From Rouxiella chamberiensis (GTDB taxonomy: Bacteria; Pseudomonadota; Gammaproteobacteria; Enterobacterales; Enterobacteriaceae), in NCBI RefSeq assembly GCF_026967475.1, contig NZ_CP114058.1, positions 310,001 through 374,000 of the forward strand: a stretch of 64,000 bases of DNA, given 5' to 3'. The stretch's first letter is position 1. Every line of letters starts with the position of its first letter. Position numbers and translations under genes: made by a program. Positions 2-15,476 of this stretch are shown here, in pieces. The notes beneath the pieces are model-generated. The model did not search any database, was not told the origin of the DNA, and saw nothing but the letters and a program-made list of their open reading frames with translations.

Positions 2-412
2 ATGTTGAATAAAACCCGGTTAATCTCGGCTGAATTTCGTGCGGCCTTATTGCGCCATTATATTTCTCAGGCGTTCATTTCCCTGATGGCTTCTAAACAT
101 GGCAACCCGGTCTTTATTGCTGACGGTGAAATTATTCCTCTCAGCCTGGATAAGGTCGCGGCCAATATTATTTATCACATTGAGCATCCGTTTATTCAAA
201 AGCTGGGCGCAATTGAGGGCGGGCGTTTAGCCGCGCAGGAATTAAATAAGATGCTCAAGCCGGGATTTATGAGCGAAGCCATGCAGCTTTCTTGTTACGG
301 CACGATGCGCCTGTGCCGGGTTTATCAGGACATTATTTACGGTGCGCCGGACGGCGAATTTCCCGCAGGCAGCTGCATCATGGATGAACAGGACGGGGAG
401 GCAACGTTATGA
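2..412 (+). CDS. Small conserved protein of P4-like elements, function unknown
   Basis: This is a 136-residue soluble protein with no signal peptide or membrane segment. The ATG is at the very window edge, so a ribosome binding site cannot be inspected and the true start may lie upstream. Its stop overlaps the start of the primase gene by the four bases ATGA, so the two are translationally coupled and belong to one operon. I recognise the type from the stretch upstream of the primase in P4-like elements, but no function can be assigned. Confidence 0.6.
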   Translation: MLNKTRLISAEFRAALLRHYISQAFISLMASKHGNPVFIADGEIIPLSLDKVAANIIYHIEHPFIQKLGAIEGGRLAAQELNKMLKPGFMSEAMQLSCYGTMRLCRVYQDIIYGAPDGEFPAGSCIMDEQDGEATL

Positions 413-3092
413 GTCACAAGCCGGTATCAGAGGTGATCAGCGCCGCGAAAGGCCGCTGGCCACATATACTTCCTGCGCTGGGTATCACCGTTCCCGCCAA
501 CGGCCAGCACGGAGCCTGTCCAAAATGCGGCGGGAAGGATCGCTTTCGCTTTGATGATAAGGGCGGGCGCGGCACCTGGATTTGTTCGCAGTGTGAACAC
601 GGCGACGGGCTGGACTTAGTGCGTCTGGTCGGCGGGACGACTGCGGCGGAAGCCGCCAAAGAAGTGGCGGCGGCGTTGGCGATGGCCTCAGTGTCATTAC
701 CGACAAACACGCCCGCCAGGAAAGAAGCCTCCCCGGAGCAAAAGCGGGCGATGTGCCTGAAAGCGTATGGTGCGCTACTGGGTCAGTGCATTCAGGGCGA
801 AAGTGAATATCTGAAAGGGAAGGGATTAGACAACACCGAGGGAATGCTAACGCAGGTCATGAAACCGTTCGGGGGCGTGGAGTTTATCCCCGGCTCTCTT
901 TTGTTGCCCTTAACCAACGCGCAGGGGCAGCAAACCGGTGCGCAGCTTATTCACCCCTACGGTGAAAAACGACTCTTACCCCATTCCGCGCTGGCCGGTT
1001 CATTCATCAGCGTGGTTGAACCGGGCGATATCGCCCCTGAGCAGGTGACGATCACCGAAGGGTTTGCGACGGCGCTCACCGTGTCCAGGCTGACGGACGG
1101 GGTTTGCGTGGCGGCCCTCTCGGCAAATAACCTGCTTAACGTGGCGCAGGCCGTGCGTGAAAAGTGGCCGGACGCACGGATCATCATTGCCGGGGACAAC
1201 GACTTTGACGACGGCAAGGAAAACACCGGCAAGCTGTGCGCGCAGAAGGCGGCTAAAGCGGTCAACGGGTGGGTGACGGTGCCGCCCACACGGCATAAGG
1301 CCGACTGGGACGATTTCCGCCAGGAGCACGGCATGGATCGCGCTAAAGAGGCGTTTAAAGAAGAACTCGTGCTGTTTGGCAAAGGGAAAACCAAGTTGCC
1401 GCAGGGGTTCCGCCTGACGCAGGAATACCTGTGGTACGACAAACAGGTGCAGAAATCCGACGGTGACACGGAAATCCGCAACATCAAGCTGTGCAGCCCA
1501 GTGCGCGTCACGGCCATCACCTGCGACGAAGACGGCAGCAACTATGGCCGCCTGCTGGAGTGGGAGGATACCAACGGGATCAGCCGAAAATGGGCAATGC
1601 CGATGGAAATGCTGGCCAGCGCCGGGGAAGAGCTGCGCCGCACGCTGCTGGTTAACGGGCTGTCGTACATCAATATTAACGGCCAGGCGCGTGCGCACCT
1701 GATGGAATACATTTCTCTGTGCAAGCCCGAGCGAAAAGTCACCTGCGTGACCAAAACCGGGTGGCACGGTTCGGTGTACGTTCTCCAGGATGAAGTGATC
1801 GGCGTCGGTTCGGAGTCCGTTATTTTGCAGACCTCAAGCGTTCAGGGGCGGGATTTTAGAACAGCGGGCACGCTGGAAGACTGGCGGGAACAGGTTTCAC
1901 GCTACTGCGTCGGCAACGGGCGGGTGGCTTTTGCCGTGAGCCTGGCGTTTGCCGCACCGCTGCTGAAACTGGTGGGCGTTGGCGGGGGCGGATATCACCT
2001 CAAGGGTGAATCCACGGATGGTAAAACCACTACCATGAAGGTGGCCGCGTGGGTGTGCGGCGGGGCTGACTTCTGGCACACCTGGCGTGCCACCGGCAAC
2101 GCGCTGGAAGGCACCGCCAGCCGCCGCAATGACGCCACGCTAATGTTGGATGAAATTCGCGAAGTAGACGGCAGAGAGGCGGGGAACATTGCCTACATGC
2201 TGGCGAACGGCCAGGGTAAAGCGCGAGCGAGAACGGACGGCAGCGTGCGGGAAACTAACCGCTGGTGCCTGCTGTTCCTGTCCACCGGTGAGCTTTCCCT
2301 GGTCGAACACGCCGCCAACGTGGGGAAAAGACCTACGCTGGGGTTGAGGTGCGGATGATCCAAATCCCCAGCGACACCGGCAAGTACGGCGTGTTTGAGG
2401 AGTTGCACGGTTTTGCTGGCGGCAAGGCGCTGGCCGAACACCTTGAGCAGTCCGTGATGCTGAGCCACGGTGCGCCGTTCAGGGAGTGGCTGCGCTGCCT
2501 AACGGCCGATCTTCCGGGCATGACCAGCAAGGCCAAGGCCATGCTGAAAGAGTTTACCCGCAGGCTGACGCCTGACAACGCCGGGAACCAGGTAGGACGC
2601 GCGGTCACGCGCTTTGCGCTGGTGGCGATGGCGGGCGAGTTGGCCACCGAGGCGGGGATCACCGGCTGGCAACCCGGAGAGGCCTACAACGCGGCCAAAA
2701 GCTGTCTGGATGCGTGGATGTATGACCGTGGCCACACGGCGAACCAGGAGGACGCCGCCGCGCTGGAGCAGGTCAGGGACTTCATGACGCGCAATCAGTA
2801 CAGCCGCTTTGCCGACTGGCACGACTCACACAGCCGCCCGGCCAACATGGTGGGCTTTCGCCGCGTAGAGAAGGGCAGCGGTCAGGAGGATACGGTAACC
2901 ACCTTCTACGTGCTGCCTACCGGCTGGAAGGAGGTCACCAAAGGCTTTGACGCCAAGAAGGTGGCCAGGCTGTGCGCGACGGCGGGCTATCTCGACGTGC
3001 CGGAGGAGGAAGCCAGAACCCAGAAAAGCCTCCGCCTGCCAGAGATGGGGGTTAAACGGGTCTATCAGCTAAACAGCACCGTTTTAGGGTAA
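409..3092 (+). CDS. P4-type primase-helicase (DUF927), apparent frameshift at 2326-2329
   Basis: This is the replication protein of the satellite. The N-terminus has a primase zinc ribbon (CPKC, then CSQC about 24 residues later). A TOPRIM-like part follows, with ITEGFAT and the acidic IAGDND. The C-terminal DUF927/helicase part has a Walker A-like ESTDGKTTT and a Walker B LMLDE. The reading frame breaks at the AAAA run 2326-2329: with one more A the frame continues into the segment ending at 3092, giving about 894 residues. The break lies in the ATPase part, so the literal product would be cut to 649 residues. A base-calling deletion is more likely than a real mutation, because the downstream half stays open. 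The start overlaps the upstream gene (ATGA). Confidence 0.85.
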
Positions 3093-3389: not shown

Positions 3390-3716
3390 ATGCGAGTATT
3401 CAAAGTGATATGCCCGGAGTGTGATGCTGCGGCCGTAATCAAAAAGACGCACCGCAAACATAAGCATTTTGCTGATCTCTACTGTTCCTGTTCGGATCCG
3501 GAATGTGGTCACACCTTTGTGATGAATATGACCTTCTCGCATACCCTAAGCCCAAGCGGCAGAACGTACAGCCGTATAGTAAAGGATATTGCGGACAACA
3601 TTGCGCCCGCGCAGCGCGAAGAAATAGCGGTTTTTCTGACGAACTCGGCAAAAGAAGCGAGGGAAGGAGAGCAACGTAACAGTGAGGCAAAAAGTACGGT
3701 TGTTCGCCGAAGTTAA
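3390..3716 (+). CDS. Ogr/Delta-type zinc-finger transcription activator
   Basis: This 108-residue protein carries the signature of the P2 Ogr / P4 Delta family: Cys8-x2-Cys11, 22 residues, Cys34-x4-Cys39, followed by HTF. These activators bind one zinc and turn on late promoters of P2-like helper phages through the RNA polymerase alpha subunit. In a satellite such a gene ties gene expression to a helper phage. The C-terminal third is basic and polar and probably disordered. It stands alone, with the hexamer array upstream and a long AT-rich gap downstream. Confidence 0.8.
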   Translation: MRVFKVICPECDAAAVIKKTHRKHKHFADLYCSCSDPECGHTFVMNMTFSHTLSPSGRTYSRIVKDIADNIAPAQREEIAVFLTNSAKEAREGEQRNSEAKSTVVRRS

Positions 3717-4100
3717 TCCGGTGAGCGAAATGCTCAAACGCGGACTTACAGGTTTTTAGCATTACATTTTTTTCAGTTTTGATTTTCATCCCTTGTGCTT
3801 CCAGGCCGCGTGGCGCAAGGGTTCTCACGTTTTACCCCACCCACATACCACTCCCTTTTTGCTCACTTATTTTCACGTAAAATAGAAAAGTTGTTTTTAA
3901 ACATATGGTTAACCGGCATTCAACAAGGTAGGCAGAACTCTAAAACTGAAAAATACTGAAATTCATTTCAATCTTTTCAGTTTGGGATTTACGAGACAAC
4001 ACCAGACGTGGCGCGGCCTGGCGTATCGGTTTGTAAAAAATGAAAACTGAAAAAATTATGCATTGCAAAAACCGCAGGCGGGTGCGGTGTAGTGCAATTT
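3717..4100. other. AT-rich intergenic stretch between ogr-like gene and the RT module
   Basis: No open frame here looks like a gene. It holds four copies of the decamer AAACTGAAAA or its complement (annotated separately), a nested palindrome at 3943-3983 and the first copy of a 13-bp direct repeat at 4020-4032. It may contain upstream control sites or part of the RT-associated RNA. Confidence 0.5.
3770..4053. repeat. Four copies of decamer AAACTGAAAA / TTTTCAGTTT
   Basis: Copies lie at 3770-3779 (minus), 3943-3952 (plus), 3974-3983 (minus) and 4044-4053 (plus). The middle two form a perfect 10-bp inverted repeat that encloses a second hairpin, GAAAT/ATTTC at 3958-3969. Role unknown; a binding site for a regulator of the RT module or an RNA stem are both possible. 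Confidence 0.6.
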
Positions 4101-4129
4101 TTGTTAGATTTCATTTTTTTATTGATACT
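4101..4129 (+). promoter_or_regulatory. Candidate promoter for the RT-associated RNA and SLATT-RT operon
   Basis: TTGTTA (4101-4106) and GATACT (4124-4129) are 17 bp apart, each matching the sigma70 consensus at four of six positions. A start near 4136 would place the hairpin chain and then the SLATT and RT genes on one transcript. The prediction rests on sequence only. Confidence 0.35.
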
Positions 4130-4135
4130 TTAATA

Positions 4136-4300
4136 AGTAGCGGTAGAATTAGATTTCTTGGGGCGTATCGGTTTTCCGATCATCCAGAAATTGGGTGTAA
4201 CTAATTTTGAGGGGATTATATCCCCTAGCTACCTGCTAGCCTGTTTTAATAGGCGTTACTCTTAATACTACGTAAGGCGTCTCAAGAACCCTATCACCTC
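4136..4300 (+). ncRNA. Candidate structured non-coding RNA of the RT system
   Basis: The stretch between the candidate promoter and the SLATT ribosome binding site holds a chain of hairpins: 4153-4191 (ATTTCT/AGAAAT base, top ATCGG-TTTT-CCGAT), 4210-4226 (AGGGGAT-TAT-ATCCCCT), 4225-4239 (CTAGC/GCTAG, competing by two bases) and 4239-4254 (GCCT/AGGC). The 3' part has TACT twice nine bases apart. Defence RTs with SLATT partners are known to need an upstream ncRNA template; assignment here is inferred from position and folding potential. Ends are approximate. Confidence 0.5.
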
Positions 4301-4310
4301 GGAGTGTAAG

Positions 4311-4871
4311 ATGAGTTTGAATAATAAAATATGGTGGACAAGAAAAACCAGGATACAATCCGAGAAACGCCTCTTGAGTTATGATATCCACTCTCAATTA
4401 ATGCTCCTTTGGTATTCAATCGTTCTTGTTTGTGTATCTATTTTTGAGTTGAAATTGCCATCCCCAAGTAACTTTTTTCCTTTGATAATGGTAACTCTAT
4501 CTGTATTGGTTCTATGCGCGACTCTTTTTGTAAACAATAGAAACTTTAAAGAGAGGGCTATGTTAATGAAGCAGTGCTATGAGCAGTTGAGTATTATTAT
4601 CGAGAAGCTTAATAGTACGGAGTCCGATTCGGTTGAGTTAAATAGAGAGTATCAAAGTATTTTGAGTGTTTGCGAGAACCACAAGGATATTGATTTTAAA
4701 AAAGCTGTGGTTTCCGAGTTTTATAATACACACGCTAGCCAAGTTGATAGCTTAACTAAAAAACCGACAAAAATTCAAACTGCTGTTGTTCTATCAAGTT
4801 CAATCGGATACTCCATCTTCTTATTGGTTTTATTTATATTCCCCTTGTTGATTTCTATATATTTGAGGTGA
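4311..4871 (+). CDS. SLATT-domain membrane protein, partner of the reverse transcriptase
   Basis: This 186-residue protein has two closely spaced hydrophobic segments (about residues 29-46 and 55-74), a central charged helical region and a C-terminal membrane segment (about 158-184). This matches SLATT proteins, two-transmembrane effectors of bacterial conflict systems thought to damage the membrane when triggered. GGAG at 4301-4304 is a good ribosome binding site six bases before the ATG. The RT gene follows after four bases, so the pair is one operon. I expect it to be the killing or effector arm while the RT senses or makes DNA; that division of labour is inference. Confidence 0.7.
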   Translation: MSLNNKIWWTRKTRIQSEKRLLSYDIHSQLMLLWYSIVLVCVSIFELKLPSPSNFFPLIMVTLSVLVLCATLFVNNRNFKERAMLMKQCYEQLSIIIEKLNSTESDSVELNREYQSILSVCENHKDIDFKKAVVSEFYNTHASQVDSLTKKPTKIQTAVVLSSSIGYSIFLLVLFIFPLLISIYLR

Positions 4872-4875
4872 TGTC

Positions 4876-6210
4876 GTGAAAATATGGGATGAGTATGACA
4901 GGATATTCAAAGAAGATAACCTAATAAGAATTTATAAGGAATTTGTCATCCTGTCTGCAGCGACAGGCATAGATAATATGACTCATAAAAAATTATGGGA
5001 GATTTTTGATTCGCAAATATCAATTATCAGAAGAAAAGTATTGTTGGGAGAGTATCGTTTTACCAAGTATAAGTTGAAACTTATTAGTAAAGGAAGAGGA
5101 AAGCCTCCTCGAGAAATATCAATACCAACAATTCGTGATAAAATTGCATTAAGAGCTCTATGTGATTTTCTTCAAAATAGATTTTCCGCTTCTTTGAAAT
5201 TTTCTATTCCGCAATTGGTTGTTAAAGATATTAAAGAGGTTTTGTTGTCAGCTGAATATGATGCATTTATTAAACTTGACGTGTCAAACTTTTATCCGAA
5301 AATAAATCATAAAAAGTTACTTACTACTCTTAGAAAGAGAATTAGAGATGAGAGAATATTAGCGCTTATTCTGAGTGCTATCACTGCGCCTACGGTATCA
5401 AAATCAAGCAGCTCTGACAAGCTTGCTACAGTCGGTGGTTCTCAGGGCCTTTCTATATCTAATGTGCTTGCTGCAATATACTTATCCAATATCGATAAAT
5501 ATTATAGTCAAATGGAAGGTATTAAGTATTTTAGATATGTAGATGATATTTTAATTCTTTGTCGTAAAGAAGAATGTATTCAGCTATCCAAAGATGTTAT
5601 TAAAAGATTTAAAAATATTCGTTTAGAAATTCACGATCCTATAAAATCCCCAGATAAATCCTCTGTAGGTGTCCTTGGTGTGAGTGATTTTTCTTACTTA
5701 GGATATCAGTTTTCATCTACTCAGGTTTCCGCTAAACAGGCATCTAAAGATAGACTTCGCGAATCAATTATGTCTATTTTTACAGGTTATAAATACTCAA
5801 AAATTAAGAGCAAAGAATTTCTTGAATGGCGAGTCAATTTAAGGATTACAGGGTGTGTATTTCAAGCAAAGTCTAAGGGGTGGTTGTTCTTCTTCTCTGA
5901 AATAAATGATGAGGTATTTTTGCATGCAATGGACGCCTTTATTAATCGGCTATGTATTCGTTATAATGTAAAAATAAATGTAAAAAGTTTCGTAAGAGCA
6001 TTTTACCAAGTCAAACATAATCGTTCTAAAACTAGTTATATTCCAAATTTTGATAACTATACTGAAGAGCAAATGTGTGATGTTCTTAATAAATACTTCA
6101 AAAAATCTACAGAAAACATGAGACTTGAGGAGATTAGTTATAACTTCAGGAAAAGAATCTCAAAACAAGTTAAAGAACTTGAAACGGATATTACTGATGC
6201 AGGTTATTAA
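4876..6210 (+). CDS. Defence-associated reverse transcriptase (UG/Abi type, DRT10-like)
   Basis: This 444-residue RT has motif A with Asp135 (KLDVSNF), motif B GSQGLS (about 188-193) and the catalytic YVDD at 221-224. The N-terminal part RGKPPREISIP is typical of RT motif 1 regions. There is no maturase or endonuclease domain, so it is not a group II intron protein, and no retron-type msr-msd is recognisable next to it. The start is GTG at 4876, using GAGGTG of the SLATT stop region as ribosome binding site. The RT + SLATT + upstream RNA arrangement matches what I recall for DRT10 systems; the subgroup needs a tree. It sits beside the integrase, the known defence hotspot of P4-like satellites. 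Confidence 0.85.
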   Translation: MKIWDEYDRIFKEDNLIRIYKEFVILSAATGIDNMTHKKLWEIFDSQISIIRRKVLLGEYRFTKYKLKLISKGRGKPPREISIPTIRDKIALRALCDFLQNRFSASLKFSIPQLVVKDIKEVLLSAEYDAFIKLDVSNFYPKINHKKLLTTLRKRIRDERILALILSAITAPTVSKSSSSDKLATVGGSQGLSISNVLAAIYLSNIDKYYSQMEGIKYFRYVDDILILCRKEECIQLSKDVIKRFKNIRLEIHDPIKSPDKSSVGVLGVSDFSYLGYQFSSTQVSAKQASKDRLRESIMSIFTGYKYSKIKSKEFLEWRVNLRITGCVFQAKSKGWLFFFSEINDEVFLHAMDAFINRLCIRYNVKINVKSFVRAFYQVKHNRSKTSYIPNFDNYTEEQMCDVLNKYFKKSTENMRLEEISYNFRKRISKQVKELETDITDAGY

Positions 6211-6211
6211 A

Positions 6212-7390
6212 TTAATTTGTTTTTTCATTTAGCAAATAATCACTGAATGATTGGAGCATTTTTTTTCGACTTTCTAAATACTGCGCATGATTGTAAGTTC
6301 CGCGAATTGAGTTTTTATCAACATGCGCAAGTTGTAACTCTATCCAGGCGCTATCAAAACCTTGCTCATGCAAGATAGTGCTCATGGTGTGCCTGAATCC
6401 ATGTCCTGTGGCTTTCCCATGATACCCGATCAGTTTTAGTACCTTATTAATGCTCCCTTCACTCATCGGCTTACTGGCATTATTGCGCCCAGGGAACACG
6501 AGCTGGTAACGCCCTGTTAGCGTCTCTAACTGGCGTAGGATCTCCAGTGCCTGCGTTGATAATGGAACTAGGTGAGGACGTTTCATTTTCATGCGTTCCG
6601 CAGGGATCTCCCACATAGCATTTTCTAAATCAAACTCCTCCCATCTTGCTGCTCTTAACTCGATTGTTCGGGTGCCGGTTAGCATTAGCAGCTGCGTGGC
6701 CAATTTAGTTATGATGCTGCCTGAGTAGGAATCCAGAGCTTTTATAAAAGCAGGGAGTTCATCCGCCATCAGGAAGGGGTAGTGGTTTCTTTTTGGCGTC
6801 TGTAAGGCGCTGGCCAGATCTGGAGCTGGGTTATACGCGGCGCGGCCAGTAATAACAGCGTAGCGGAATACCTCTCCACAGCGTTGGCGTACTTTACTGG
6901 CTAATTCTACCGCTCCCCGACCTTCAATTTTCTGAAGTACAAGCAGCAACTCTAAAGGCTGGATCCCATCAATTGCCCTTTCACCCAGGAAAGTAAATAC
7001 ATTCAACTCAAGAAGACGGATCACTGACTGAGCGTAATTCTCTGTCCAGGATGCTTTCTTAGCGGCATGCCATTCCAGAGCAATAGCTTTGAATGTATTG
7101 CCAGCAGCGGACAGCTGAGCAAGTTTACCGGCTTTACGGGCTTCACTCGGATTTATACCTTTGGCCAGTTGGGATTTGGCTTCTTCACGTCTGGCACGCG
7201 CATCTGCCAAAGAAACTGCGGGATACACACCAAAAGAAATCATTTTTGGCTTACCTGCAAAGCGATATCTGAACCGCCAGCCTTTCGCACCCGAGGTTTC
7301 GACGAGCAAAGAAAGCCCATTACCATCATTGAGGGTGTAGGGTTTTTCGGTTGGTTTGGCGCGTTTTATTTGGATATCACTGAGTGGCAT
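6212..7390 (-). CDS. P4-type tyrosine integrase of the satellite
   Basis: This 392-residue integrase inserts and excises the satellite at tRNA-Arg. The N-terminal DUF4102-type domain (residues 1-85, with NDGNGLSLLV and the FGVYPAVSLADAR motif) is typical of P4-like integrases. Catalytic residues are visible as Arg241 (TGTRT), His330 and Arg333 (HGFRH), His356 and nucleophile Tyr366 (GTYNH). It is read away from the tRNA, whose 3' end lies 160 bp from its start. Its stop is one base from the RT stop, so the two genes converge with no terminator space. Confidence 0.95.
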   Translation of the reverse strand: MPLSDIQIKRAKPTEKPYTLNDGNGLSLLVETSGAKGWRFRYRFAGKPKMISFGVYPAVSLADARARREEAKSQLAKGINPSEARKAGKLAQLSAAGNTFKAIALEWHAAKKASWTENYAQSVIRLLELNVFTFLGERAIDGIQPLELLLVLQKIEGRGAVELASKVRQRCGEVFRYAVITGRAAYNPAPDLASALQTPKRNHYPFLMADELPAFIKALDSYSGSIITKLATQLLMLTGTRTIELRAARWEEFDLENAMWEIPAERMKMKRPHLVPLSTQALEILRQLETLTGRYQLVFPGRNNASKPMSEGSINKVLKLIGYHGKATGHGFRHTMSTILHEQGFDSAWIELQLAHVDKNSIRGTYNHAQYLESRKKMLQSFSDYLLNEKTN

Positions 7391-7550: not shown

Positions 7551-7625
7551 TGGTGTCCCCTACAGGAATCGAACCTGTAACTAGCCCTTAGGAGGGGCTT
7601 GTTATATCCGTTTAACTAAGGAGAC
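7551..7625 (-). tRNA. argW: tRNA-Arg, anticodon CCT (argW-type)
   Basis: The 75-nt gene folds as a cloverleaf. The acceptor arm GTCTCCT pairs with AGGGGAC, the anticodon stem is AGCCC/GGGCT, the loop CTCCTAA has anticodon CCT at 7592-7590, the T arm holds GGTTCGATTCC, and the 3' CCA is encoded. It closely matches E. coli argW. It is the insertion target of both elements: the satellite at its 3' end, the prophage inside its 5' third. The gene remains complete. Confidence 0.95.
7607..7625. repeat. attL core of the prophage (19-bp direct repeat)
   Basis: It is identical to 46333-46351 and corresponds to nucleotides 1-19 of tRNA-Arg. Flanking bases differ on both sides. The neighbouring integrase gene (7819) shows this is the integrase-proximal end. 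Confidence 0.9.
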
Positions 7626-7766: not shown

Positions 7767-7809
7767 GAGTACAGATTGAGTACAGAATGATTTAACCAGT
7801 GTGTACAGG
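7767..7809. repeat. Candidate integrase arm-type sites (GAGTACAGA repeats)
   Basis: GAGTACAGA occurs at 7767-7775 and 7778-7786, 11 bp apart, followed by GTGTACAGG at 7801-7809. The right end carries GTGTACAGA at 46249-46257. Repeated short sites flanking the core are expected for arm-type integrase binding; function is inferred. Confidence 0.4.
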
Positions 7810-7818
7810 AAAATCATT

Positions 7819-8988
7819 GTGGCATTAAGCGATACCAAACTTAGAAGTATAAACGGGAAACCCTACAGTGGACCTGCAGAGGTAACCGACGCCGATGGTC
7901 TGGGGGCCAGGATATCCCCTACTGGGACGATAGCATTCCAGTATCGTTTCAGGTGGCAGGGAAAGCCAGCTCGCGTAACTATTGGTCGCTATCCCTCTAC
8001 TACACTCAAAGACGCCCGGATAACTGTCGGTGAGTTGCGCGCATTGTACATGAAGGGGGTTCACCCAAAAACCTATTTCTCTGGATCCACTGGAGAACTA
8101 ACACTGAAAGATTGCTTGGACTATTGGTGGGAAAAATACGTTAGTGGACTCAAAGAAAATACTCGGATTTTGTACAAATCAGTTGTCTACAACACGATGT
8201 ACTCTGAATTTCCAGACACACCTGTTGCAAATATTCCTATCTCAATGTGGGTGAAGTTTTTTGACAAGCAAGAATCTTTGAACAAAAAGAAGGCGCGGGT
8301 TTTACTCACTCAGTTACGTTCAGTCATTAATTGGTGTATTAGTAGGCAAATAATACCGTCATGTGAGCTAACCAAGCTTAGTGTAAAAAATATCGGCAAA
8401 AAGGCGGATGTCGGCGATCGCGTACTCACGTACTCGGAACTGGCTAAGATATGGTTGGGACTTGAGAACAGCAAAATTGCTTCATCTAACAAAATGTTAC
8501 ATCAGTTACTTCTTTTATGGGGCGCTAGGCTTTCCGAATTGCGACTTTCCACCATTGGAGAATTCAATATGGAAGACCTTATATGGACCACTCCATCGAT
8601 ACACTCAAAAATGGGAAATGTCATTCGTAGACCAATCTTCGAGCAAATCCAACCGTCTATCGAAAGGCTACTTAATTCCGGTAATAAAATTCTTTTCCCA
8701 GGCCAAGAGTTAGACAAAGCGATAGACAGATCATCCTCAAACACTTACATGAAGAAGTTTAGGGCAACACTTGATATTCCTGAATGGAGGACTCACGACT
8801 TTCGCCGCTCGCTGGTAACGAATCTGTCCAGTGAAGGTGTAATGCCCCATGTTACTGAAAAGATGCTTGGACATGAGTTAGGTGGTGTCATGGCTGTATA
8901 TAATAAACATGACTGGATGGAAGAACAGCGCAAAGCCTATGAACTCTACGCTGATAAAATTTTCTGGCACGTTAAGAAACTCGGTTGA
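7819..8988 (+). CDS. Tyrosine integrase of the prophage
   Basis: This enzyme catalyses insertion and excision at the tRNA-Arg core. It has the N-terminal DUF4102-type domain (IGRYPSTTLKDAR) and a tyrosine recombinase catalytic domain. The visible active-site residues are Arg of GARLSELR, His and Arg of HDFRRS, His of LGHELGG and Tyr of AVYNKHD. I chose GTG 7819 as the start because AGGAAA (7807-7812) lies seven bases upstream and the protein then begins with the family's usual ALSDTK. An in-frame GTG at 7801 exists but has no ribosome binding site. It resembles the integrases of argW phages such as KplE1, HK620 and Sf6. Confidence 0.93.
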   Translation: MALSDTKLRSINGKPYSGPAEVTDADGLGARISPTGTIAFQYRFRWQGKPARVTIGRYPSTTLKDARITVGELRALYMKGVHPKTYFSGSTGELTLKDCLDYWWEKYVSGLKENTRILYKSVVYNTMYSEFPDTPVANIPISMWVKFFDKQESLNKKKARVLLTQLRSVINWCISRQIIPSCELTKLSVKNIGKKADVGDRVLTYSELAKIWLGLENSKIASSNKMLHQLLLLWGARLSELRLSTIGEFNMEDLIWTTPSIHSKMGNVIRRPIFEQIQPSIERLLNSGNKILFPGQELDKAIDRSSSNTYMKKFRATLDIPEWRTHDFRRSLVTNLSSEGVMPHVTEKMLGHELGGVMAVYNKHDWMEEQRKAYELYADKIFWHVKKLG

Positions 8989-9151
8989 CGCCACCATCCG
9001 CGATCCATTTTTCGACGGCAGCCCTGCTATATTTGGCAGGGTGAGTAAGCACTGGGGCTGGGAAACCATTGAATTTTCTTAGCCTCCACAGGGCAGTCCT
9101 CGCCTTACCAATTTTGAGCATTACCTCTTCTTCAGTCATAAAGTCACTCAT
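8972..9151 (-). CDS. AlpA/excisionase-like small DNA-binding protein
   Basis: A 59-residue frame begins MSDFMTEEEVMLKIG and contains the AlpA/Xis-type pattern: a winged-helix with KARTALWRLRKFNGFPAPV followed by YSRAAVEKWI. Such proteins bend DNA for excision or control the integrase. The ribosome binding site AGGGAA lies seven bases ahead of the ATG, and the start overlaps the stop of the upstream gene (ATGA). Its 3' end overlaps the convergent integrase gene by 17 bp, the usual int-xis geometry. It is shorter than 60 residues and easily missed. Confidence 0.8.
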   Translation of the reverse strand: MSDFMTEEEVMLKIGKARTALWRLRKFNGFPAPVLTHPAKYSRAAVEKWIADGGVNRVS

Positions 9152-9504
9152 AGCGTTTTCCCTTCCTTCCCCGCATAAGTAGAACCCATGTCATTCCCCA
9201 TACTTTCCCATATTTCAATCCCATACGAAGTAAGGCCACTTTTATTTTTCAAACACTTTTTCAGTATGGCGATACCAAATCTTTCCCACTTATCAAGATT
9301 TTGTTCCAATGCTTCTAGAAGGTATCCATCAATTAGCTGACGCACACCTTTTACTCCGCCGATAATCTCGATACGCAAAGACGAATGCCCAGCAGGGACC
9401 TCAAACCAATCGCCTTTATTTTTCGAGCGTACATGATCCAGCACAGAGGCTGCATATTGATTTGCCAGAGAATTCAACTGGAAGTTCTTGGTTGCAATTT
9501 TCAT
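9148..9504 (-). CDS. Phage protein of unknown function, early left operon
   Basis: This is a 118-residue soluble protein with no recognised motif. GGAGG precedes the ATG by seven bases. It overlaps the excisionase start and abuts the antirepressor-like gene, so it is part of the leftward PL operon. It may act in recombination or regulation, but nothing in the sequence shows this. Confidence 0.7.
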   Translation of the reverse strand: MKIATKNFQLNSLANQYAASVLDHVRSKNKGDWFEVPAGHSSLRIEIIGGVKGVRQLIDGYLLEALEQNLDKWERFGIAILKKCLKNKSGLTSYGIEIWESMGNDMGSTYAGKEGKTL

Positions 9505-10367
9505 TATTTTACCTCCGACATATAGAGAGCTTTGTCATGGCTGAATTCACCGTTCCATGACACCTTCATCGGCAATTCACCTTTCAGATACAGGGCATAC
9601 AGCCGGTGACACCCCTTTTCCAAAAGAACAGGGGTTTTCTTTCGAAAAGCCTCCATGCCATGCGGCTTAATCTCCGTTTCCTCCTCGGTGAGGTATTTAT
9701 CCCGCGCATAAGAGGCAACACGCCAGCGTGGGTCTTTCTCGGGATCACGTTGCTCATTGAAAATCCAGTCGCGTCCAAACGCCCACCACATAACTTTGCT
9801 GGTGTTTACCCCATTAAGACACTTGCAGAAGGCCGGTATAGTCATCCCTTTGGCAAAATGCTTTTCCAGGCTCTCTACCGTTACTGACAACTCTTTGTTT
9901 TGGTTTTTAAGCCTTTCATTATCGCCTGAGTAATTCATCAATAAATTACGCAGTGTTGCAGGGTCATTGAGCAACTGCATAGCATCGATAGGTGCTGCAA
10001 TAGTTCCACGGTGCGTGAAATAAAATTCACTCAAATCGTTGAAGTAATCCCACGCTCGATCTGTTTCCAGCATCTTCGAATGGTAGGCCGCGCCGCGTTC
10101 CGTCCAAAGAATCAGGCTTCGTGCATTTTTACCTACAGCCCCGATTATTTCGGGTCTGTTCTTGAATTCACGTAGCTCCTCACCCTCAACACGAAAGAAG
10201 TGCTTTTCTACTACAAAACGCAGCCGGTTATTCTGAAAGTTGTCTTGAATGTTTTTGACGCTGGCACCATAGCCAGCTGCCATTTGCTCGGTCGTTACCA
10301 CGCGCTGGCCGCGATATTCGATAACCTGCAGGTTTTTGGCCTCTAAAGGCTTCAATTGAGTTTTCAC
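9504..10367 (-). CDS. ORF6N-domain antirepressor-like protein
   Basis: This is a 287-residue protein. Its N-terminal 110 residues (QVIEYRGQRVVTTEQMAAGY, then NRLRFVVEKHFFRVEGEELREF) match the ORF6N domain of phage antirepressors. A coiled-coil stretch follows (about 150-175) and then a C-terminal domain with CKCLNGVNTSKVMWW and a basic end. Antirepressors of this type bind DNA or the repressor to promote induction. The start is GTG with AAGGAT ahead. It overlaps the neighbouring gene by four bases. Confidence 0.75.
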   Translation of the reverse strand: MKTQLKPLEAKNLQVIEYRGQRVVTTEQMAAGYGASVKNIQDNFQNNRLRFVVEKHFFRVEGEELREFKNRPEIIGAVGKNARSLILWTERGAAYHSKMLETDRAWDYFNDLSEFYFTHRGTIAAPIDAMQLLNDPATLRNLLMNYSGDNERLKNQNKELSVTVESLEKHFAKGMTIPAFCKCLNGVNTSKVMWWAFGRDWIFNEQRDPEKDPRWRVASYARDKYLTEEETEIKPHGMEAFRKKTPVLLEKGCHRLYALYLKGELPMKVSWNGEFSHDKALYMSEVK

Positions 10368-10585
10368 TTGATATCCTTCTGAGTGTTGTAGCGCTCGTGG
10401 CTCATTAACTGCCAGCTTTTACCCTGGTTTTTTGAAAGTAGGCGCCAGCGTCGATTCACTTTTAGCGATAGATTCCCGGTCGAAAGAATTCGTGTGGGCA
10501 GCTGTCGCTGGTGGCGATACTTTTTGAGCACGCTCACTGCCTTATCCACGACCCACGCAGGTGCCTTGATTACTGTTATGTTCAT
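10364..10585 (-). CDS. Small basic phage protein, possibly ParE-like toxin fold
   Basis: It has 73 residues and is strongly basic. The pattern VNRRWRLLSKNQGKSWQLMSHERYN resembles small phage proteins that have been described as ParE-like; I am not sure of this. No separate antitoxin gene is recognisable next to it, which argues against a stand-alone toxin pair. It overlaps both neighbours by four bases within the PL operon. Confidence 0.6.
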   Translation of the reverse strand: MNITVIKAPAWVVDKAVSVLKKYRHQRQLPTRILSTGNLSLKVNRRWRLLSKNQGKSWQLMSHERYNTQKDIK

Positions 10586-10968
10586 TCAGCCACCACTTTC
10601 AAATCTGAACCCTTGGGCTGCTTGAGCGCCTCAGATACCATTTCGACCATCAATGCCTCCATAAAGCCAAAGCCTTGCTGAGTCAGTTTTCCATTATTGG
10701 GATCGAAAAATTCAGCGTATGTATCGGCTACGCAGCGCATTTCATCAGTGGTAACGAACGGAGTTATTCCAGACTTCATCACCAAGTTCTCAAAGCGCTC
10801 AATCATGCCTTTTTTGATGCCAGCTTCGGACAGTTCAACGACAACCGGCATTTTCTTTCTTGGCACCTTAATGTGGGCAACCTTTACTCCGTGCTGACTT
10901 TTGCAATAGTCGATATATGAAAGTGCAATACGCTTTCTGTCCCTTTCAATTCTTTGCTCTACATTCAT
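10582..10968 (-). CDS. Phage protein of unknown function, early left operon
   Basis: This 128-residue protein is helical and charged, with a basic N-terminus (MNVEQRIERDRKRIALSYIDY) and no catalytic motif that I recognise. Its stop overlaps the next gene by four bases. There are 79 bp of non-coding DNA upstream before the following gene. Confidence 0.7.
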   Translation of the reverse strand: MNVEQRIERDRKRIALSYIDYCKSQHGVKVAHIKVPRKKMPVVVELSEAGIKKGMIERFENLVMKSGITPFVTTDEMRCVADTYAEFFDPNNGKLTQQGFGFMEALMVEMVSEALKQPKGSDLKVVAE

Positions 10969-11047
10969 GCTATAAACTCCAGGCGGCGATTTGGGCGCAG
11001 TTATCCCCGACCAAATGGCCGCTATTATTTTTTGAGTTAATTAATAT

Positions 11048-11467
11048 TTAAAATGGCTTGGCTTTATTCAACGCCTGATAATCAGCAACCAATTTATCGT
11101 GCTTTATTTTCCATTTTTGAATATCACGTTTTTTAGCAAGTATCCTACGGATACGACGAATGCAGCGTAATTGCATTTGCCAATATTCTTCGCGGATTTC
11201 ACCGCGTCGCCAAAGCACTTTGTCATCACGGTCTATCTTTACATCGGGATGGCGTGAAGGGCGGTTGGCTCGCGTAAATACTTTTTGCGTCATAAAGTGC
11301 GCAAGGGTGTTTATTGCCGCCGAGCGGCTGAGGCATTTTTTAAAACGGCCATGACGAGAGATATAAAAAACAGGCGTAGGGCGAATGCGAAAAGCTACGT
11401 CAATACCACCGTCGTCAATTAATTCATCTTCTTCAAATCTTGAGTAGTCAATTTTTGCTGATTTCAT
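11048..11467 (-). CDS. Basic phage protein of unknown function
   Basis: This is a 139-residue protein with a very basic C-terminal half rich in Arg and Lys (QMQLRCIRRIRRILAKKRD), so nucleic-acid binding is plausible. No known domain was recognised. It overlaps the next upstream gene by four bases, so both are translated together from the PL transcript. Confidence 0.65.
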   Translation of the reverse strand: MKSAKIDYSRFEEDELIDDGGIDVAFRIRPTPVFYISRHGRFKKCLSRSAAINTLAHFMTQKVFTRANRPSRHPDVKIDRDDKVLWRRGEIREEYWQMQLRCIRRIRRILAKKRDIQKWKIKHDKLVADYQALNKAKPF

Positions 11468-11670
11468 TTAAGTAGCTCTCTATCGATTGTTGATAATTCA
11501 TTCCTGATTGAACTTAAGTGCTCTACTGCTAATTGTAATGCGGACCACTCTTTGAATGAGGTTTCATATAAAGATTCCATTGCCAATTTAATAGTGGCTT
11601 CGGCAACTTCAATCCCAGCTACGCTATCAATGATTTGATCGGAAATTTCAATTTTCAAATCTTCTTTCAT
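11464..11670 (-). CDS. Small acidic phage protein, function unknown
   Basis: This is a 68-residue acidic, helical protein overlapping both neighbouring genes in the leftward operon. No motif was recognised. Its negative charge contrasts with the basic protein encoded immediately downstream, so the two might interact; this is a guess from charge only. Confidence 0.6.
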   Translation of the reverse strand: MKEDLKIEISDQIIDSVAGIEVAEATIKLAMESLYETSFKEWSALQLAVEHLSSIRNELSTIDRELLK

Positions 11671-11863
11671 GTTTAATTCCCAAATAAGTGGGCATTCGGC
11701 AACTTAATGATAAAACATATTTGGATGACAGCTGGCGGCGAGCTTCGATTTCACTTGTAGCCACCACACGCTTCATCATAGGCTTGGCGAAGCAGTCAGA
11801 GCGAAGTACGGAAGCAAAAACATATATGTGTAAAACGTCAGTTGAATTTTTTAACATAGTCAT
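11648..11863 (-). CDS. Icd-like host cell division inhibitor homologue
   Basis: It has 71 residues. The central pattern VLRSDCFAKPMMKRVVATSEIEARRQLSSKY followed by a final Arg-Met-Pro-Thr resembles small phage proteins annotated as Icd-like, after the P1 cell-division inhibitor Icd. In this family the block before it normally forms a beta strand. The assignment is by recollection of the pattern. It is in the PL operon, so it would be made early after induction. Confidence 0.55.
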   Translation of the reverse strand: MTMLKNSTDVLHIYVFASVLRSDCFAKPMMKRVVATSEIEARRQLSSKYVLSLSCRMPTYLGIKHERRFEN

Positions 11864-12015
11864 GAGGGTTCTTCTATGGTGATCTCAATCTATCTACAAA
11901 GTTAAGAGTTTTCACTACTGTTTTAATGTGAATTTTCTTGAGATAAAACCAACCTTAAAAAGCTATCACGCAATGAAATTCACAAAGGAAATTATTTGTT
12001 TTTGTTAAAGACGAA

Positions 12016-12360
12016 TTACTTATTATTTACCCAGTAGTCACCTCCTTTAAGACAGTTTTGCAAAGAAGTTTTAAGCTCTTCTGAGCTATTGATGATTTGC
12101 ATTGCTTCATGGCAAATTTCATCCTTATTTTCAAAAGCACAAATCAAAACAAAAAAAGATCCAAACCTTTTATATAAGGCATAAATAGGACGGTTTACAT
12201 CAGGTTTAAGGTGAAGGCATAAACTATCAGTTGATACTGTCTTATAAAAATCATAGAACTCACCTTTATTGTCCACTTTAGAAAAAGACTGATATTGACC
12301 GTGAGCTATGCAAAGGGTGAATGAATCAACTTCATATATTTTATTTTCCAGATTGAACAT
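12016..12360 (-). CDS. First gene of the leftward operon, function unknown
   Basis: This 114-residue protein has no recognised domain. I place the start at the ATG of MFNLENKIY because GGGAGG lies six bases upstream; an ATG four codons earlier has that ribosome binding site behind it. It is the first gene after PL and is AT-rich compared with its neighbours. In lambdoid phages this position often holds exclusion, antitermination or repressor-control genes, but the sequence gives no direct support for any of these. A gap of 152 bp separates it from the Icd-like gene. Confidence 0.6.
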   Translation of the reverse strand: MFNLENKIYEVDSFTLCIAHGQYQSFSKVDNKGEFYDFYKTVSTDSLCLHLKPDVNRPIYALYKRFGSFFVLICAFENKDEICHEAMQIINSSEELKTSLQNCLKGGDYWVNNK

Positions 12361-12389
12361 TATGCCTCCCATTAGTATTCGATGGGGTA

Positions 12390-12456
12390 AGTATCACCGC
12401 TGGAGATTTATATGTCAACTCCGCTGGTGATTTTTATATAACACTTGCGGTGGATT
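12390..12456 (-). promoter_or_regulatory. PL promoter with repressor operators
   Basis: On the minus strand a consensus TTGACA (12418-12413) and GATACT (12395-12390) are 17 bp apart. Operator half-sites lie at 12392-12400 (TATCACCGC), 12423-12432 (GCTGGTGATT, complement) and 12447-12453 (GCGGTGG, complement), overlapping the -10 region and spacer and lying upstream of the -35 box. The same half-site recurs at PR and PRM, so one repressor should control both regions. Confidence 0.7.
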
Positions 12457-12520
12457 TAAGTAGAAGTTACTGATTTGAGGGAAAAAATGAAAAGATGTTT
12501 ATTTTATCGGAGACATAAAA

Positions 12521-12541
12521 AAACCGGCTTAACGCCGGTTT
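12521..12541 (-). terminator. Rho-independent terminator of the repressor gene
   Basis: AAACCGGC and GCCGGTTT enclose a five-base loop, and a run of seven A before it on the plus strand gives the U tract for the leftward repressor transcript. Confidence 0.8.
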
Positions 12542-12558
12542 AATTTTGAAACTTGTAG

Positions 12559-13287
12559 TTAGTTAGGACTGTGCTTTGGCGGGATTTCGTCGTGATCCAT
12601 ATAGCGAGTTGCTTTTACTATTGCGGACACAAAGTGCATTTTTTGTACTTCATTTGCATCTAAAGTAATAGGCTTATGTTCATTATTTATGCTAGAGAAC
12701 TGGTAGCTTCCGTCCCTAGTTTTAGTCATTATTTTTATCATGTTGTGGCCGTCCAAAGTACGAACAAACACCTCATCCCCTGAGTGAACATGAGTGTTTG
12801 GTTCGATAACCACAAACTCACCCGATTGAATCCGAGGGTGCATGCTGTCACCTTTGACTTTAAGCCCATAAGCGTCTTTATCGGTACTATAAATTTGTAA
12901 CCATCCAGCCGGTATCTCCACCATGTCGATCATGCCATCAACTCCCAAGATAGCCTCTCCAACGACCGGTATTAAACCCAGGCGCGGCTTACCTGCATAC
13001 TCAAACTCATCCGCACTCAACGACTTAGCCATAATCGCAATTTCTTCTGCTAATGAAGGACTGAAATCACCAACTGAAACCTGAAGGATTTTTGCAAATG
13101 TCGCAGCATTACTAGTGTTTAATGCGTTGACGCCATTTAAAAGTGCATTTACTGCGCTTTGCCCCATGTTCAATTCGTCAGCAATAAAACCTTGAGATAA
13201 ACCCAAAGATTTCTTTTTCGCTTCATATAGCGACTTAAGGCGCTGAGCATCAGCGATTTGCTCTGAGGATAAGGGTTTCTTTTTCAT
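12559..13287 (-). CDS. CI-like repressor with S24 autoprotease domain
   Basis: This 242-residue protein maintains lysogeny. The N-terminal helix-turn-helix is at about residues 28-60 (LGLSQGFIADELNMGQSAVNALLNG). The C-terminal S24 domain has nucleophile Ser148 in GDSMHP and the general base Lys185 in NMIKIM. Ala98-Gly99 (EYAGKP) is a likely self-cleavage site, so the repressor should be inactivated by RecA during the SOS response. It is transcribed leftward from PRM and ends at the hairpin 12521-12541. Its operators lie at 12392-12456 and 13298-13374. Confidence 0.92.
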   Translation of the reverse strand: MKKKPLSSEQIADAQRLKSLYEAKKKSLGLSQGFIADELNMGQSAVNALLNGVNALNTSNAATFAKILQVSVGDFSPSLAEEIAIMAKSLSADEFEYAGKPRLGLIPVVGEAILGVDGMIDMVEIPAGWLQIYSTDKDAYGLKVKGDSMHPRIQSGEFVVIEPNTHVHSGDEVFVRTLDGHNMIKIMTKTRDGSYQFSSINNEHKPITLDANEVQKMHFVSAIVKATRYMDHDEIPPKHSPN

Positions 13288-13293
13288 TCTCGC

Positions 13294-13374
13294 AATTTAT
13301 CACCGCAGGGAATAACAGTCAACCACCGCAGGTGTTGACTAAAAATCTCTAGCGGTGATACTTATCGCAGTGAA
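13294..13374. promoter_or_regulatory. PR and PRM promoters with operator half-sites
   Basis: PRM (minus) has TTGACT (13322-13317) and TAAATT (13299-13294) with 17 bp spacing. PR (plus) has TTGACT (13335-13340) and GATACT (13357-13362) with 16 bp spacing. Half-sites TATCACCGC (13298-13306), CCACCGCAGG (13323-13332), GCGGTGATA (13352-13360) and TATCGCAGTGAA (13363-13374) cover both promoters, as expected for a CI/Cro switch. Confidence 0.75.
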
Positions 13375-13390
13375 TTTCTTAGGAGCCAGG

Positions 13391-13600
13391 ATGAAAAGAA
13401 TACCTCTTTCAGTTTTTGTCAAAGAGCATGGGCAAGTTAACACTGCAAATATGCTTGGTGTAAGACAAAGTGCGATAAACAAGGCATTGAAATACAAGAG
13501 AAATATATTAATCACTCAACATGAAAATGGTGAGATCGACGCAGAAGAATGGAGGAAGTTTCCAAGTCAATTACCTAGAGGCAAAATTCCTAATGCCTAA
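13391..13600 (+). CDS. Cro-like repressor
   Basis: This is a 69-residue protein directly downstream of PR and divergent from the repressor. The stretch VKEHGQVNTANMLGVRQSAINKALKY is a helix-turn-helix typical of Cro proteins of the lambda/P22 group. I use ATG 13391, with AGGAG at 13381-13385, and not the upstream in-frame start at 13355, which would lie inside the promoter. Cro should bind the same operators and shut off repressor synthesis during lytic growth. Confidence 0.8.
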   Translation: MKRIPLSVFVKEHGQVNTANMLGVRQSAINKALKYKRNILITQHENGEIDAEEWRKFPSQLPRGKIPNA

Positions 13601-13772
13601 TTTAATACAAACTCTTGACCGTAGGTATCGTGACCCACGAGGAGTGATTGTGCGGGTGATTGCGTTCGATCGTATCAACCAAAGAGTGATTTTTATGCGT
13701 GAAGGTTGGCCCGATGAATGTTTTCGACCACTTAAAGATTTTCAAGATAACTTCGTGAGGGTTGATCAATGA
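13593..13772 (+). CDS. DUF4222 protein
   Basis: A 59-residue protein beginning MPNLIQTLDRRYRDPRG, which matches DUF4222 proteins found between cro/cII and replication genes in enterobacterial prophages. Start ATG 13593 overlaps the last codons of cro, and its stop overlaps the start of the replication gene. Function unknown. Confidence 0.7.
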   Translation: MPNLIQTLDRRYRDPRGVIVRVIAFDRINQRVIFMREGWPDECFRPLKDFQDNFVRVDQ

Positions 13773-14611
13773 GCATGGAGTTAATGACTAAGGCTTTCAA
13801 AATTAAAGTGGGCAATCCATTGAGAAAGCTGATCCTCATCAAGCTGGCTGATAATGCGAGTGATCAGGGCGAGTGCTGGCCGAGCTATCAACATATAGCC
13901 GAACAGTGTGAAACGACAAGACGTTCCGTTATCACCCATATCGATGCGCTATGCGAGTCGGGATTGCTCAGGAAAGAGCTTCGTCCAGGTCAAAAAGGGA
14001 ATTCAAGCAACCTATATCGCCTTAATTTAGGTGGTGCAGGAATTTCACTAGGGGGTGGTGCAGGAAATTCACCCCCCTAGTGCAGGAGATTCACCCCCTA
14101 GTGAAGGAGATTTACCAGGTGGTGAAGGAGATTCACTAGGGGTGGTGAAGGAGTTTCACCCAGAATCAGTCACTCTTTTGAATCAGTCAGTGAATCAGTC
14201 ATTGAACCTAAATCTATTGGTGCACAGGCAGCTGCCAGTACACCGACCAAAAGTGGATCTGCAGATTATTCTCCCGAATTTGAACAGGCTTGGCAGGCAT
14301 ACCCTAAACGAGCTGGTGGCAACTCAAAGATTAATGCCTTCAAAGCTTGGAACGCGAGACTGCATGAAGGGGTTACCCCGGCCTCAATGGTGGCAGGTAT
14401 GCAGCGTTACACCGCTTTCCTCGAAAGCACAGGCAAGCTTGGGACCGAATTTGTCAAGCAGGCAGCAACGTTTTTTGGCCCAAGTCGCTCGTTCGATGAA
14501 GCATGGAGTGCGCCTGCAAAGCGGGTAGCAACCCAGCGCCATAGCGGATTCGTAACAGCCGACTACGGCGTATCACAAACACCATCTTGGGCGAGGGAAA
14601 ACGATGAATAA
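13769..14611 (+). CDS. Phage replication initiator (O-type, helix-turn-helix), two compensating apparent frameshifts
   Basis: The N-terminal 90 residues form a winged helix-turn-helix (HIAEQCETTRRSVITHIDALCESG) as in phage replication proteins. The C-terminal part (FEQAWQAYPKRAGGNSKINAFKAWNARL) is the usual tail of such proteins. In the middle are six iterons. Read literally the frame stops at 14078. Removing one C from the six-C run 14072-14077 and adding one G at the GGGG run 14139-14142 restores a single frame of about 280 residues. Its end overlaps the helicase loader start. It probably binds its own iterons to open the origin and recruits the DnaC/DnaB-like proteins encoded next. Confidence 0.75.
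14035..14161. repeat. Six iterons inside the replication gene, candidate phage origin
   Basis: Six copies of TG(C/A)AGGANNTT(C/T)AC start at 14035, 14059, 14081, 14102, 14123 and 14146, i.e. 21-24 bp apart, each encoding a G-A/E-G-D/N-S-type unit. Iterons within the initiator gene are the layout of the lambda origin. Confidence 0.65.
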
Positions 14612-15476
14612 TCAGCTTTCAGAAAGACGTCAGGAGCTGGCCGAGATCGCAACCAAGCAGGCAGACCTGCGTGAAGAACGTAGTTTTGCCCAAGGGAAAA
14701 TTGGGTCGCTTTACAGCGCCTACCGGAACAGTGAGACGCTGCAAGTTACTTGCCCTCAACACGGTGAGTTTGAACAGCAGCATATCTGGATGTTCTTCTC
14801 CGGCCGAGAGTCGCACAAGCATTCCCGTTGCCCACACTGTCTGGATCAGGAAGCCAAAGACTTAAAAACCCGCAAACAGGAAATCCGGATCGGGGAGTTA
14901 ACCGAGAATGCCAATATCCCGCCGCGCTTTACCGGCTGCGATTTTGACAATTTCAAAGTGGTTAATCCAAATGCCGGAAAAAACCTCGGTGTAATGCGTG
15001 CGTATGCAAAGGCGTGGCCGCAAATGCAAAGTGCAGGCACAAGCCTGATCCTTTGCGGCGCACCTGGCACCGGCAAGAATCACCTGGCCGTCTCGTTGGC
15101 CAAGGAGATAATCCGAAGCTATCAGGGCGACGTTCTTCTGACGTCGGTCATGCGGATAATTCGGGCAGTCAGGCGCAGTTGGGACAAGGCATCAGACCAG
15201 CGTGAAGAAGACGTGATTGATTTTTACACCAGCCGCGATTTGCTGATTATTGACGAGGTGGGCATCCAGTACGGCAGCGATTCCGAGAAGATTATTCTTT
15301 TCGACATCCTGAACACTCGCTACGAGGAGATGCTGCCCACAGTGCTGATTAGCAACCTCCCACCAGCAGATATTGCCGAGGTGATTGGCGAACGCCTGAT
15401 GGATCGTATGGTTGAAGGCGAAGGCGCAACGCTGGTTTTTGATTGGGAAAGTTATCGTGGAAAAAAGGGGCAGTGA
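14604..15476 (+). CDS. DnaC-like helicase loader
   Basis: This 290-residue AAA+ ATPase should load the phage helicase at the origin. It has Walker A GAPGTGKN (about residues 154-161; Asn replaces the usual Thr or Ser, as in other phage DnaC proteins) and Walker B LLIIDEVG. An N-terminal Cys pattern (CPQHGEF and later CPHC) may bind zinc. It overlaps the initiator gene by eight bases and is followed within a few bases by the helicase gene, giving an initiator-loader-helicase operon. Confidence 0.88.
   Translation: MNNQLSERRQELAEIATKQADLREERSFAQGKIGSLYSAYRNSETLQVTCPQHGEFEQQHIWMFFSGRESHKHSRCPHCLDQEAKDLKTRKQEIRIGELTENANIPPRFTGCDFDNFKVVNPNAGKNLGVMRAYAKAWPQMQSAGTSLILCGAPGTGKNHLAVSLAKEIIRSYQGDVLLTSVMRIIRAVRRSWDKASDQREEDVIDFYTSRDLLIIDEVGIQYGSDSEKIILFDILNTRYEEMLPTVLISNLPPADIAEVIGERLMDRMVEGEGATLVFDWESYRGKKGQ

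Follow-up and report, generated by a model that had tools for sequence, protein, structure and literature searches.

The segment 4100-6210 of the window, which denotes here the whole 64,000-nucleotide stretch of DNA that was analyzed, very probably represents an anti-phage cassette of the DRT10 (UG17) kind and of its Eco1-like branch, which would make (TTAAGAGTA)n DNA from its own RNA and kill the cell through its SLATT protein. The name DRT10 was given to UG17 in a 2025 preprint (PMC12632851). The cassette lies entirely on the forward strand and comprises, in this order, a promoter-like site, a structured RNA, a SLATT_5 gene and a reverse transcriptase (RT) gene (Table 1). What was observed in this work is the gene content, the fold of the RNA, the RT family, the C-terminal tyrosine and the A-B-A' pattern of the template loop, and the DRT10 assignment made by the sequence-only reading of this DNA is borne out by an RT placed in the UG17 clade, an adjacent SLATT gene and an RNA whose pairs covary.

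Table 1. Features of the cassette and of its surroundings (window coordinates).
Feature	Position	Strand	Details
Primase-type (DUF927-like) gene, split	409-3092		Two overlapping frames, 649 + 247 aa; one profile matched almost end to end
Ogr/Delta-type regulator gene	3390-3716		
Sigma-70-like promoter TTGATA-16-TAGAAT	4122-4149	+	10/12 consensus matches
DRT10-type noncoding RNA	about 4155-4288	+	Closing stem, five small hairpins, template loop; folds, covariance model
Closing stem, 5' strand	4157-4166	+	Fold; covarying helix 1
Stem-loop 1	4167-4180	+	Fold; covarying helix 2
Stem-loop 2, then nearly invariant single-stranded ACUAAU	4181-4197	+	Fold; covarying helix 3
Stem-loop 3	4210-4226	+	Single-sequence folds only; absent from consensus
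Stem-loop 4	4227-4237	+	Single-sequence folds only, 3 pairs in window; absent from consensus
Stem-loop 5, expected 5' template boundary	4239-4254	+	Fold; covarying helix 4; role from PMC12632851
Predicted A-B-A' template UACU-CUUAA-UACU	4257-4269	+	Predicted cDNA repeat TTAAGAGTA; loop pattern, alignment
Closing stem, 3' strand	4277-4286	+	Fold; covariation
SLATT_5 membrane protein	4311-4871	+	186 aa ORF; Pfam and PADLOC profiles
UG17/DRT10 reverse transcriptase	4876-6210	+	444 aa, GTG start, YVDD at residues 221-224
Codon of C-terminal Tyr444, predicted priming residue	6205-6207	+	Position from this work; role from PMC12632851
Tyrosine integrase of satellite (context, outside cassette)	6212-7390	-	
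tRNA-Arg(CCT), probable integration site	7551-7625	-	Order integrase, then tRNA-Arg also in E. coli L001 and L073

The RT shows the hallmarks of UG17, including the YxDD motif. It scores 521 bits with the PADLOC RT_UG17 model, followed by a generic RT model (125), Drt3a (99) and DRT9 (52), and this score separates the family cleanly since, in a test set of 185 genomes, sampled from the class to which a seed genome of Morganella belongs, two matches reached 511-531 bits (one of them in the seed genome itself) and the other matches listed stayed at or below 152. In a tree of 44 chosen RTs all 29 UG17 rows, the window plus 28, form one clade (support 98/95) apart from six group II, four retron and two DRT2 RTs; the long branches of the single DRT9 row and of two unclassified rows are placed uncertainly in this tree, and Drt3a is absent from it because a search for a Drt3a reference panel gave no genome above the cut-off in 185. 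A Pfam search to E = 1 returned RVT_1 alone and neither a maturase nor an endonuclease domain. These results agree with the sequence-only reading, which had described a YVDD reverse transcriptase free of maturase and endonuclease parts, coupled to a SLATT membrane protein, and had proposed its placement on a tree as a check. The window protein keeps every invariant residue of a 47-row RT alignment and shows 100% identity from end to end with a database entry that carries the name of Rouxiella chamberiensis (Yersiniaceae).

The last residue of the protein is Tyr444, for which a priming role is predicted. Among the 120 homologues listed, window protein included, 118 end in Tyr (86) or Ser (32), and for Eco3 the protein primer is S456, for Eco1 probably Y444 (PMC12632851). 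The predicted structure of the RT (mean pLDDT 89) superposes on reverse transcriptases to about residue 381, and pLDDT falls below 50 for the final four residues, which leaves the position of Tyr444 relative to YVDD poorly modelled. Fold searches superposed group II, DGR, DRT9 and DRT2 RTs; kinship on the basis of these matches was set aside, as they were read as the common RT fold. No structure labelled DRT10 occurs among the matches listed (the best 50 in each of two RT fold lists).

The SLATT gene adjoins the RT gene, with 4 bases between its stop and the RT start. Its product matches SLATT_5 of Pfam with 109.8 bits (cut-off 29.5) and the PADLOC RTasSLATT model with 189 bits, and its predicted helices include those at residues 3-48, 56-76, 79-100, 107-120, 126-139 and 154-185. 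No solved SLATT relative was found by sequence search to E = 1 or, at E <= 0.001, by fold search, and the helical-bundle matches listed in the latter were set aside. The association of UG17 with SLATT_5 was reported in 2021 (PMC8934634).

The region 5' of the SLATT gene contains a structured RNA with a closing stem and, in the fold of the window, five small hairpins. The segment 4157-4290 folds at -47.6 kcal/mol versus -32.0 in shuffled sequences (z = -4.6, with none of 200 shuffles as low); the corresponding z values of other RNAs are -4.42 for L060 and -1.75, -2.12 and -0.01 for L001, L034 and L011, these three having been folded on stretches cut in such a way that the closing stem is missing. 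The ends at 4155 and 4288 represent trimming by the analyst and not mapped ends. The promoter-like site begins slightly before position 4136 and sits 7 bases 5' of the closing stem (4157), so that transcription is predicted to start near the 5' end of the RNA. The argument for this promoter is its position and not its score, because sigma-70-like sites are no rarer in shuffled DNA (5 found, 9.9 expected from shuffles). Thus both the promoter-like site and the chain of hairpins that had been pointed out ahead of the cassette are present.

Comparative evidence for this RNA was obtained from 27 non-redundant homologues aligned with MAFFT without structure, 11 near-duplicate loci having been removed beforehand. 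The consensus comprises 25 pairs in four helices, 20 of which show changes on both sides. Paired cells amount to 91.3% vs 78.9% in shuffled alignments and the covariation score to 0.526 vs 0.292, none of 500 shuffles being as high for either; all five measures lie above the shuffles, of which at most 1 in 500 reached the observed value, and the paired share falls from 91% to 35-41% once the pair partners are slid by 1-3 columns. A covariance model, the search of homologous loci that the sequence-only reading had proposed, scores the window RNA, itself one of the 27 training rows, at 92.3 bits (E = 7e-20). The model matches 39 of the 41 loci with an RT at least 50% identical in the best segment, 27 of these being training rows: 38 at E <= 2e-12 and L020 at E = 0.07, with L030 and L041 missed, the contig of the latter starting too late for an upstream RNA. 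Twelve of the 14 loci outside the training set were matched, most of them near-duplicates of training rows. With respect to specificity, the model gave a single match (L068, E = 0.65) in 30 other loci, none in six stretches with other cargo (L071-L076) and five in 110 stretches taken from a DNA-pattern search, four of these five lying on the contigs of L035, L037, L038 and L042 and the fifth (L221) scoring the same as L034, L035 and L038. Locus L020, from a Bathymodiolus gill symbiont, carries SLATT and RT genes and an RNA that seems devoid of 5' hairpins; it was left out of the RNA alignment (A3), its upstream RNA looking truncated (model score 19.2 bits).

The template was assigned according to the published rule, by which A and B lie directly 3' of stem-loop 5 and are followed by A' (PMC12632851). 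If the conserved GUU is a linker, the alternative parse ACU-CUUAAU-ACU applies and the predicted repeat TTAAGAGTA is unchanged. The A-B-A' pattern at 4257-4269 is not above chance for the window alone (p = 0.20), and just two of the 27 loops fall individually under 0.05. Over the 27 RNAs the mean length of A is 4.11 vs 3.05 in shuffled loops, the best of 2000 shuffled sets reaching 3.67; A has at least 4 nt in 16 loops and just 3 nt in 11, and in several loops the longest repeat differs from the one expected at the A' column. Exchange of loop halves between loci, a stricter test, gives no more than a hint, 136 of 2000 permutations doing equally well. A and A' tend to share the base that precedes AC (8:3 vs 1:7, Fisher p = 0.02) in a table that omits 8 of the 27 rows and whose rows are related to one another. 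The A' segment itself is conserved: AC is kept in its column in 27/27 RNAs and ACU at the aligned place in 26/27. As the alignment may have slid A' to fit, ACU was also counted without alignment anywhere in the 3' part of the loop, giving 26/27 vs 7.4 in shuffles (maximum 17 in 5000). At A, ACU occurs in 13/27 RNAs at the fixed place and in 18/27 within the first 7 loop bases, so the difference between A and A' shrinks when A is given the same freedom to slide that the alignment gave to A'. The letter G makes up 5% of the trimmed loops vs 24% of whole RNAs and, for this reason, most predicted repeats contain little C. Two Gs occur in the template of several Eco3-like loops.

Scans of genome contigs and of viral contigs with a single sequence returned no close relatives; with an alignment as the query they yielded 32 and 37 loci. 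The nearest described system is represented by E. coli 33F4 (L001, RT WP_031602037.1), which we infer to be Eco1 of PMC12632851, where Y444 is reported for Eco1 and two of three systems have an associated tyrosine recombinase. This locus shares with the window the order RNA-SLATT-RT, a 444-aa RT ending in Tyr, an RNA with a closing stem, small hairpins and the template after stem-loop 5, and a satellite setting beside an integrase and tRNA-Arg, whereas its RT is 58.5% and its SLATT 48-50% identical to those of the window, its B segment is another one and its unit has 8 nt instead of 9 nt. Eco3-like systems also carry the RNA 5' of SLATT, A-B-A' after stem-loop 5 and GUU, and a 9-nt unit, but their RTs are about 38% identical to that of the window, the Eco3 RT having 456 aa and ending in Ser and the Eco3 consensus having four small hairpins versus the five of the window (PMC12632851), and their RNA is unmatched by the model of the window branch except for the weak match of L068 mentioned above. 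An Eco3-type E. coli locus encodes, by its coordinates, a 456-aa RT, and the template deduced from the Eco3 motif of the preprint is present in L060. Eco3-like cassettes occur in 185 of 5426 E. coli genomes, one copy bearing an IS1 insertion, and the Eco1-like cassette of L001 in five of 5426.

Resemblances to two further systems concern the mechanism. DRT9 (UG28) likewise performs RNA-templated, protein-primed repeated copying, with a similar RNA layout and a product limited by ExoI (PMC12632851; PMC12483538), but it has a larger RT and copies a poly-U tract into poly-dA; besides the low Drt9 score of the window RT, loop 4255-4276 contains no poly-U tract. Telomerase similarly uses a template, an alignment segment and a 5' boundary stem that permit repeat addition, a parallel drawn in PMC12632851, although it extends chromosome ends and the primer of DRT10 is the last residue of the enzyme itself. 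A SLATT-free UG17 variant was considered, as BLAST detected no SLATT at the UG17 loci L025, L027 and L028, and dropped, since neighbouring frames in L025 and L027 look SLATT-like by eye (ENH motif, hydrophobic helices). In the distant UG17 loci L025 (Alcanivorax, 4327-4938) and L031 (Thalassospira, about 4528) a SLATT-like gene lies 3' of the RT, so the RNA may sit elsewhere.

The cassette lies in AT-rich DNA, described as foreign in the earlier reading, at the integrase side of a satellite. The G+C content is 31-39% over 4000-6499, compared with 44-64% in the 2 kb to the left and 41-50% in the 3 kb to the right, and primase-type, Ogr/Delta-type, integrase and tRNA-Arg genes flank the cassette. 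Copies of the flank 4002-4104 are present in 452 of 5426 E. coli genomes; at five of six hand-chosen sites DUF927 and Ogr/Delta genes, whole or in pieces, precede a different cargo (two hypothetical proteins; Shedu; an ATP-dependent nuclease; Kiwa; DprA with a HAD-like protein), the sixth site lying elsewhere. An intact integrase plus tRNA-Arg follows the cargo in one of the five (the nuclease site, L073) and also in L001. The setting agrees broadly with the cargo hotspot of P4 satellites, located between psu and int (PMC9122126): the cassette lies between the Ogr/Delta-type gene and int, and psu and sid were not seen in the window, whose left end cuts the element. Just past tRNA-Arg begins a second, prophage-like element in tandem (7801-16845), with its own tyrosine integrase, a CI-type repressor and DnaC/DnaB-like genes.

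The mode of action proposed for the cassette takes RNA binding, priming, repeat synthesis, defence and the need for SLATT from experiments on relatives, in which defence requires RT activity, SLATT and RNA (PMC12632851). Transcription from the promoter would yield an RNA of about 130 nt; the RT would bind it, prime on the hydroxyl of its own Tyr444 and copy the loop just 3' of stem-loop 5. Because the bases of A recur right after the template as A', the finished strand could slip back and be extended again, giving long single-stranded (TTAAGAGTA)n DNA attached to the RT. Host ExoI (SbcB) may keep this DNA low, and a phage that upsets the ExoI balance may cause it to build up and switch SLATT on, so that the cell would die before the phage matures.

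Departures from this reading may concern the identity of the RT, the integrity of the cassette or the exact template. That the RT is a retron or group II intron enzyme in disguise is hardly credible, given 135.8 bits with the group II model (cut-off 300), 49.1 bits with retron_St85 (cut-off 235), the separate clades of the six group II and four retron RTs, and the lack in the window of any Rfam family at gathering score except tRNA, hence of an intron RNA at that score. A decaying passenger without function is improbable. Next to the cassette, the primase-type gene is broken into two frames, whereas its counterpart in E. coli 33F4 is a single 2688-bp gene (895 aa), and the satellite may be unable to replicate by itself; moreover, in a related Sodalis copy (L032) the SLATT frame is truncated and the RT match covers just 142 residues. 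In the window, by contrast, the SLATT and RT frames run open from end to end, the RT has all invariant residues and the RNA stems are kept. The cassette of L032 (Sodalis sp. dw_96), with an intact-looking RNA (88.8 bits) and a SLATT frame of 43 aa, is itself probably decaying, and this locus and L003 were left out of the SLATT alignment for their short frames. A DRT10 machine whose template differs in register or length, so that the repeat is not the 9-mer TTAAGAGTA, is unlikely, though less so than decay: the template pattern does not rise above chance in the window alone, within the loop the energy fold has CUUA paired to UAAG, and Eco1 and Eco2 have 2-nt A/A' segments, with imprecise repeats in Eco1 (PMC12632851). 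The conservation of AC and ACU at A' speaks for the 9-mer, as does the position of A directly 3' of stem-loop 5 and GUU, an arrangement shared with the Eco3-type RNA for which PMC12632851 mapped the template.

The sign of SLATT control is less settled than the identity of the system. The DRT10 product is RT-linked single-stranded repeat DNA that is degraded by ExoI and not by RecJf, and the cDNA drops on infection with Bas18, which counts against the ExoI step proposed above (PMC12632851). From this decrease the same preprint raised the possibility that the repeat DNA restrains SLATT in healthy cells and that infection removes the DNA, freeing SLATT. On the other hand, in E. coli H120 the gene for ExoI, sbcB, becomes essential through an RT and SLATT pair that a P4-like satellite carries (PMC9122126), UG17 is stated to have this effect too, and DRT9 shows the same dependence together with toxic build-up (PMC12483538); the ExoI finding for DRT9 is repeated in a DRT3 preprint (PMC13174585), and SbcB is not mentioned in the main text of the DRT10 preprint (PMC12632851). 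The dependence on this 3'-5' ssDNA exonuclease argues against restraint, because a protective DNA would make the loss of the enzyme that degrades it harmless. Since UG17/SLATT-RT and DRT9 make sbcB essential, accumulation of repeat DNA is modestly favoured as the trigger of SLATT; restraint is a possible but less probable arrangement, and other arrangements take up the rest.

The conservation of A' allows a speculative extension, offered as a doubtful proposal. The published mechanism demands only that A and A' match (PMC12632851), but ACU is found in 26/27 RNAs in the A' half compared with the 13/27, or 18/27 with sliding, at A, which suggests that A' might be more than a spare copy of A. It could also be the start site of protein-primed synthesis, in which case Tyr444 would carry 5'-AGTATTAAG..., and each repeat would combine a free B with a constant AGT(A/T) signature readable by SLATT or a host factor. 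Together with the ExoI genetics, DRT10 would then be a guard of host ssDNA turnover: a phage that inhibits ExoI, or that protects DNA 3' ends, would let the repeat DNA build up, and this DNA would open SLATT.

The sequence-only reading had regarded the RNA and its template as undescribed; this appears to hold for the present locus, while the RNA and template mechanism of DRT10 in general has been published (PMC12632851). A literature search within PubMed Central found one preprint devoted to DRT10 and no paper joining Rouxiella with DRT10, UG17 or defense-associated reverse transcriptases. The DRT10 kind is therefore known, and what is added here is a member from Rouxiella chamberiensis, the call of its template and the conservation of A'. 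The finding provides the Eco1-like branch with an alignment of 27 RNAs, extends telomerase-like defence to a satellite of the Yersiniaceae with a falsifiable prediction of its product, and makes two open questions testable, namely the start site of protein-primed synthesis and whether the repeat DNA acts as trigger or restraint of SLATT.
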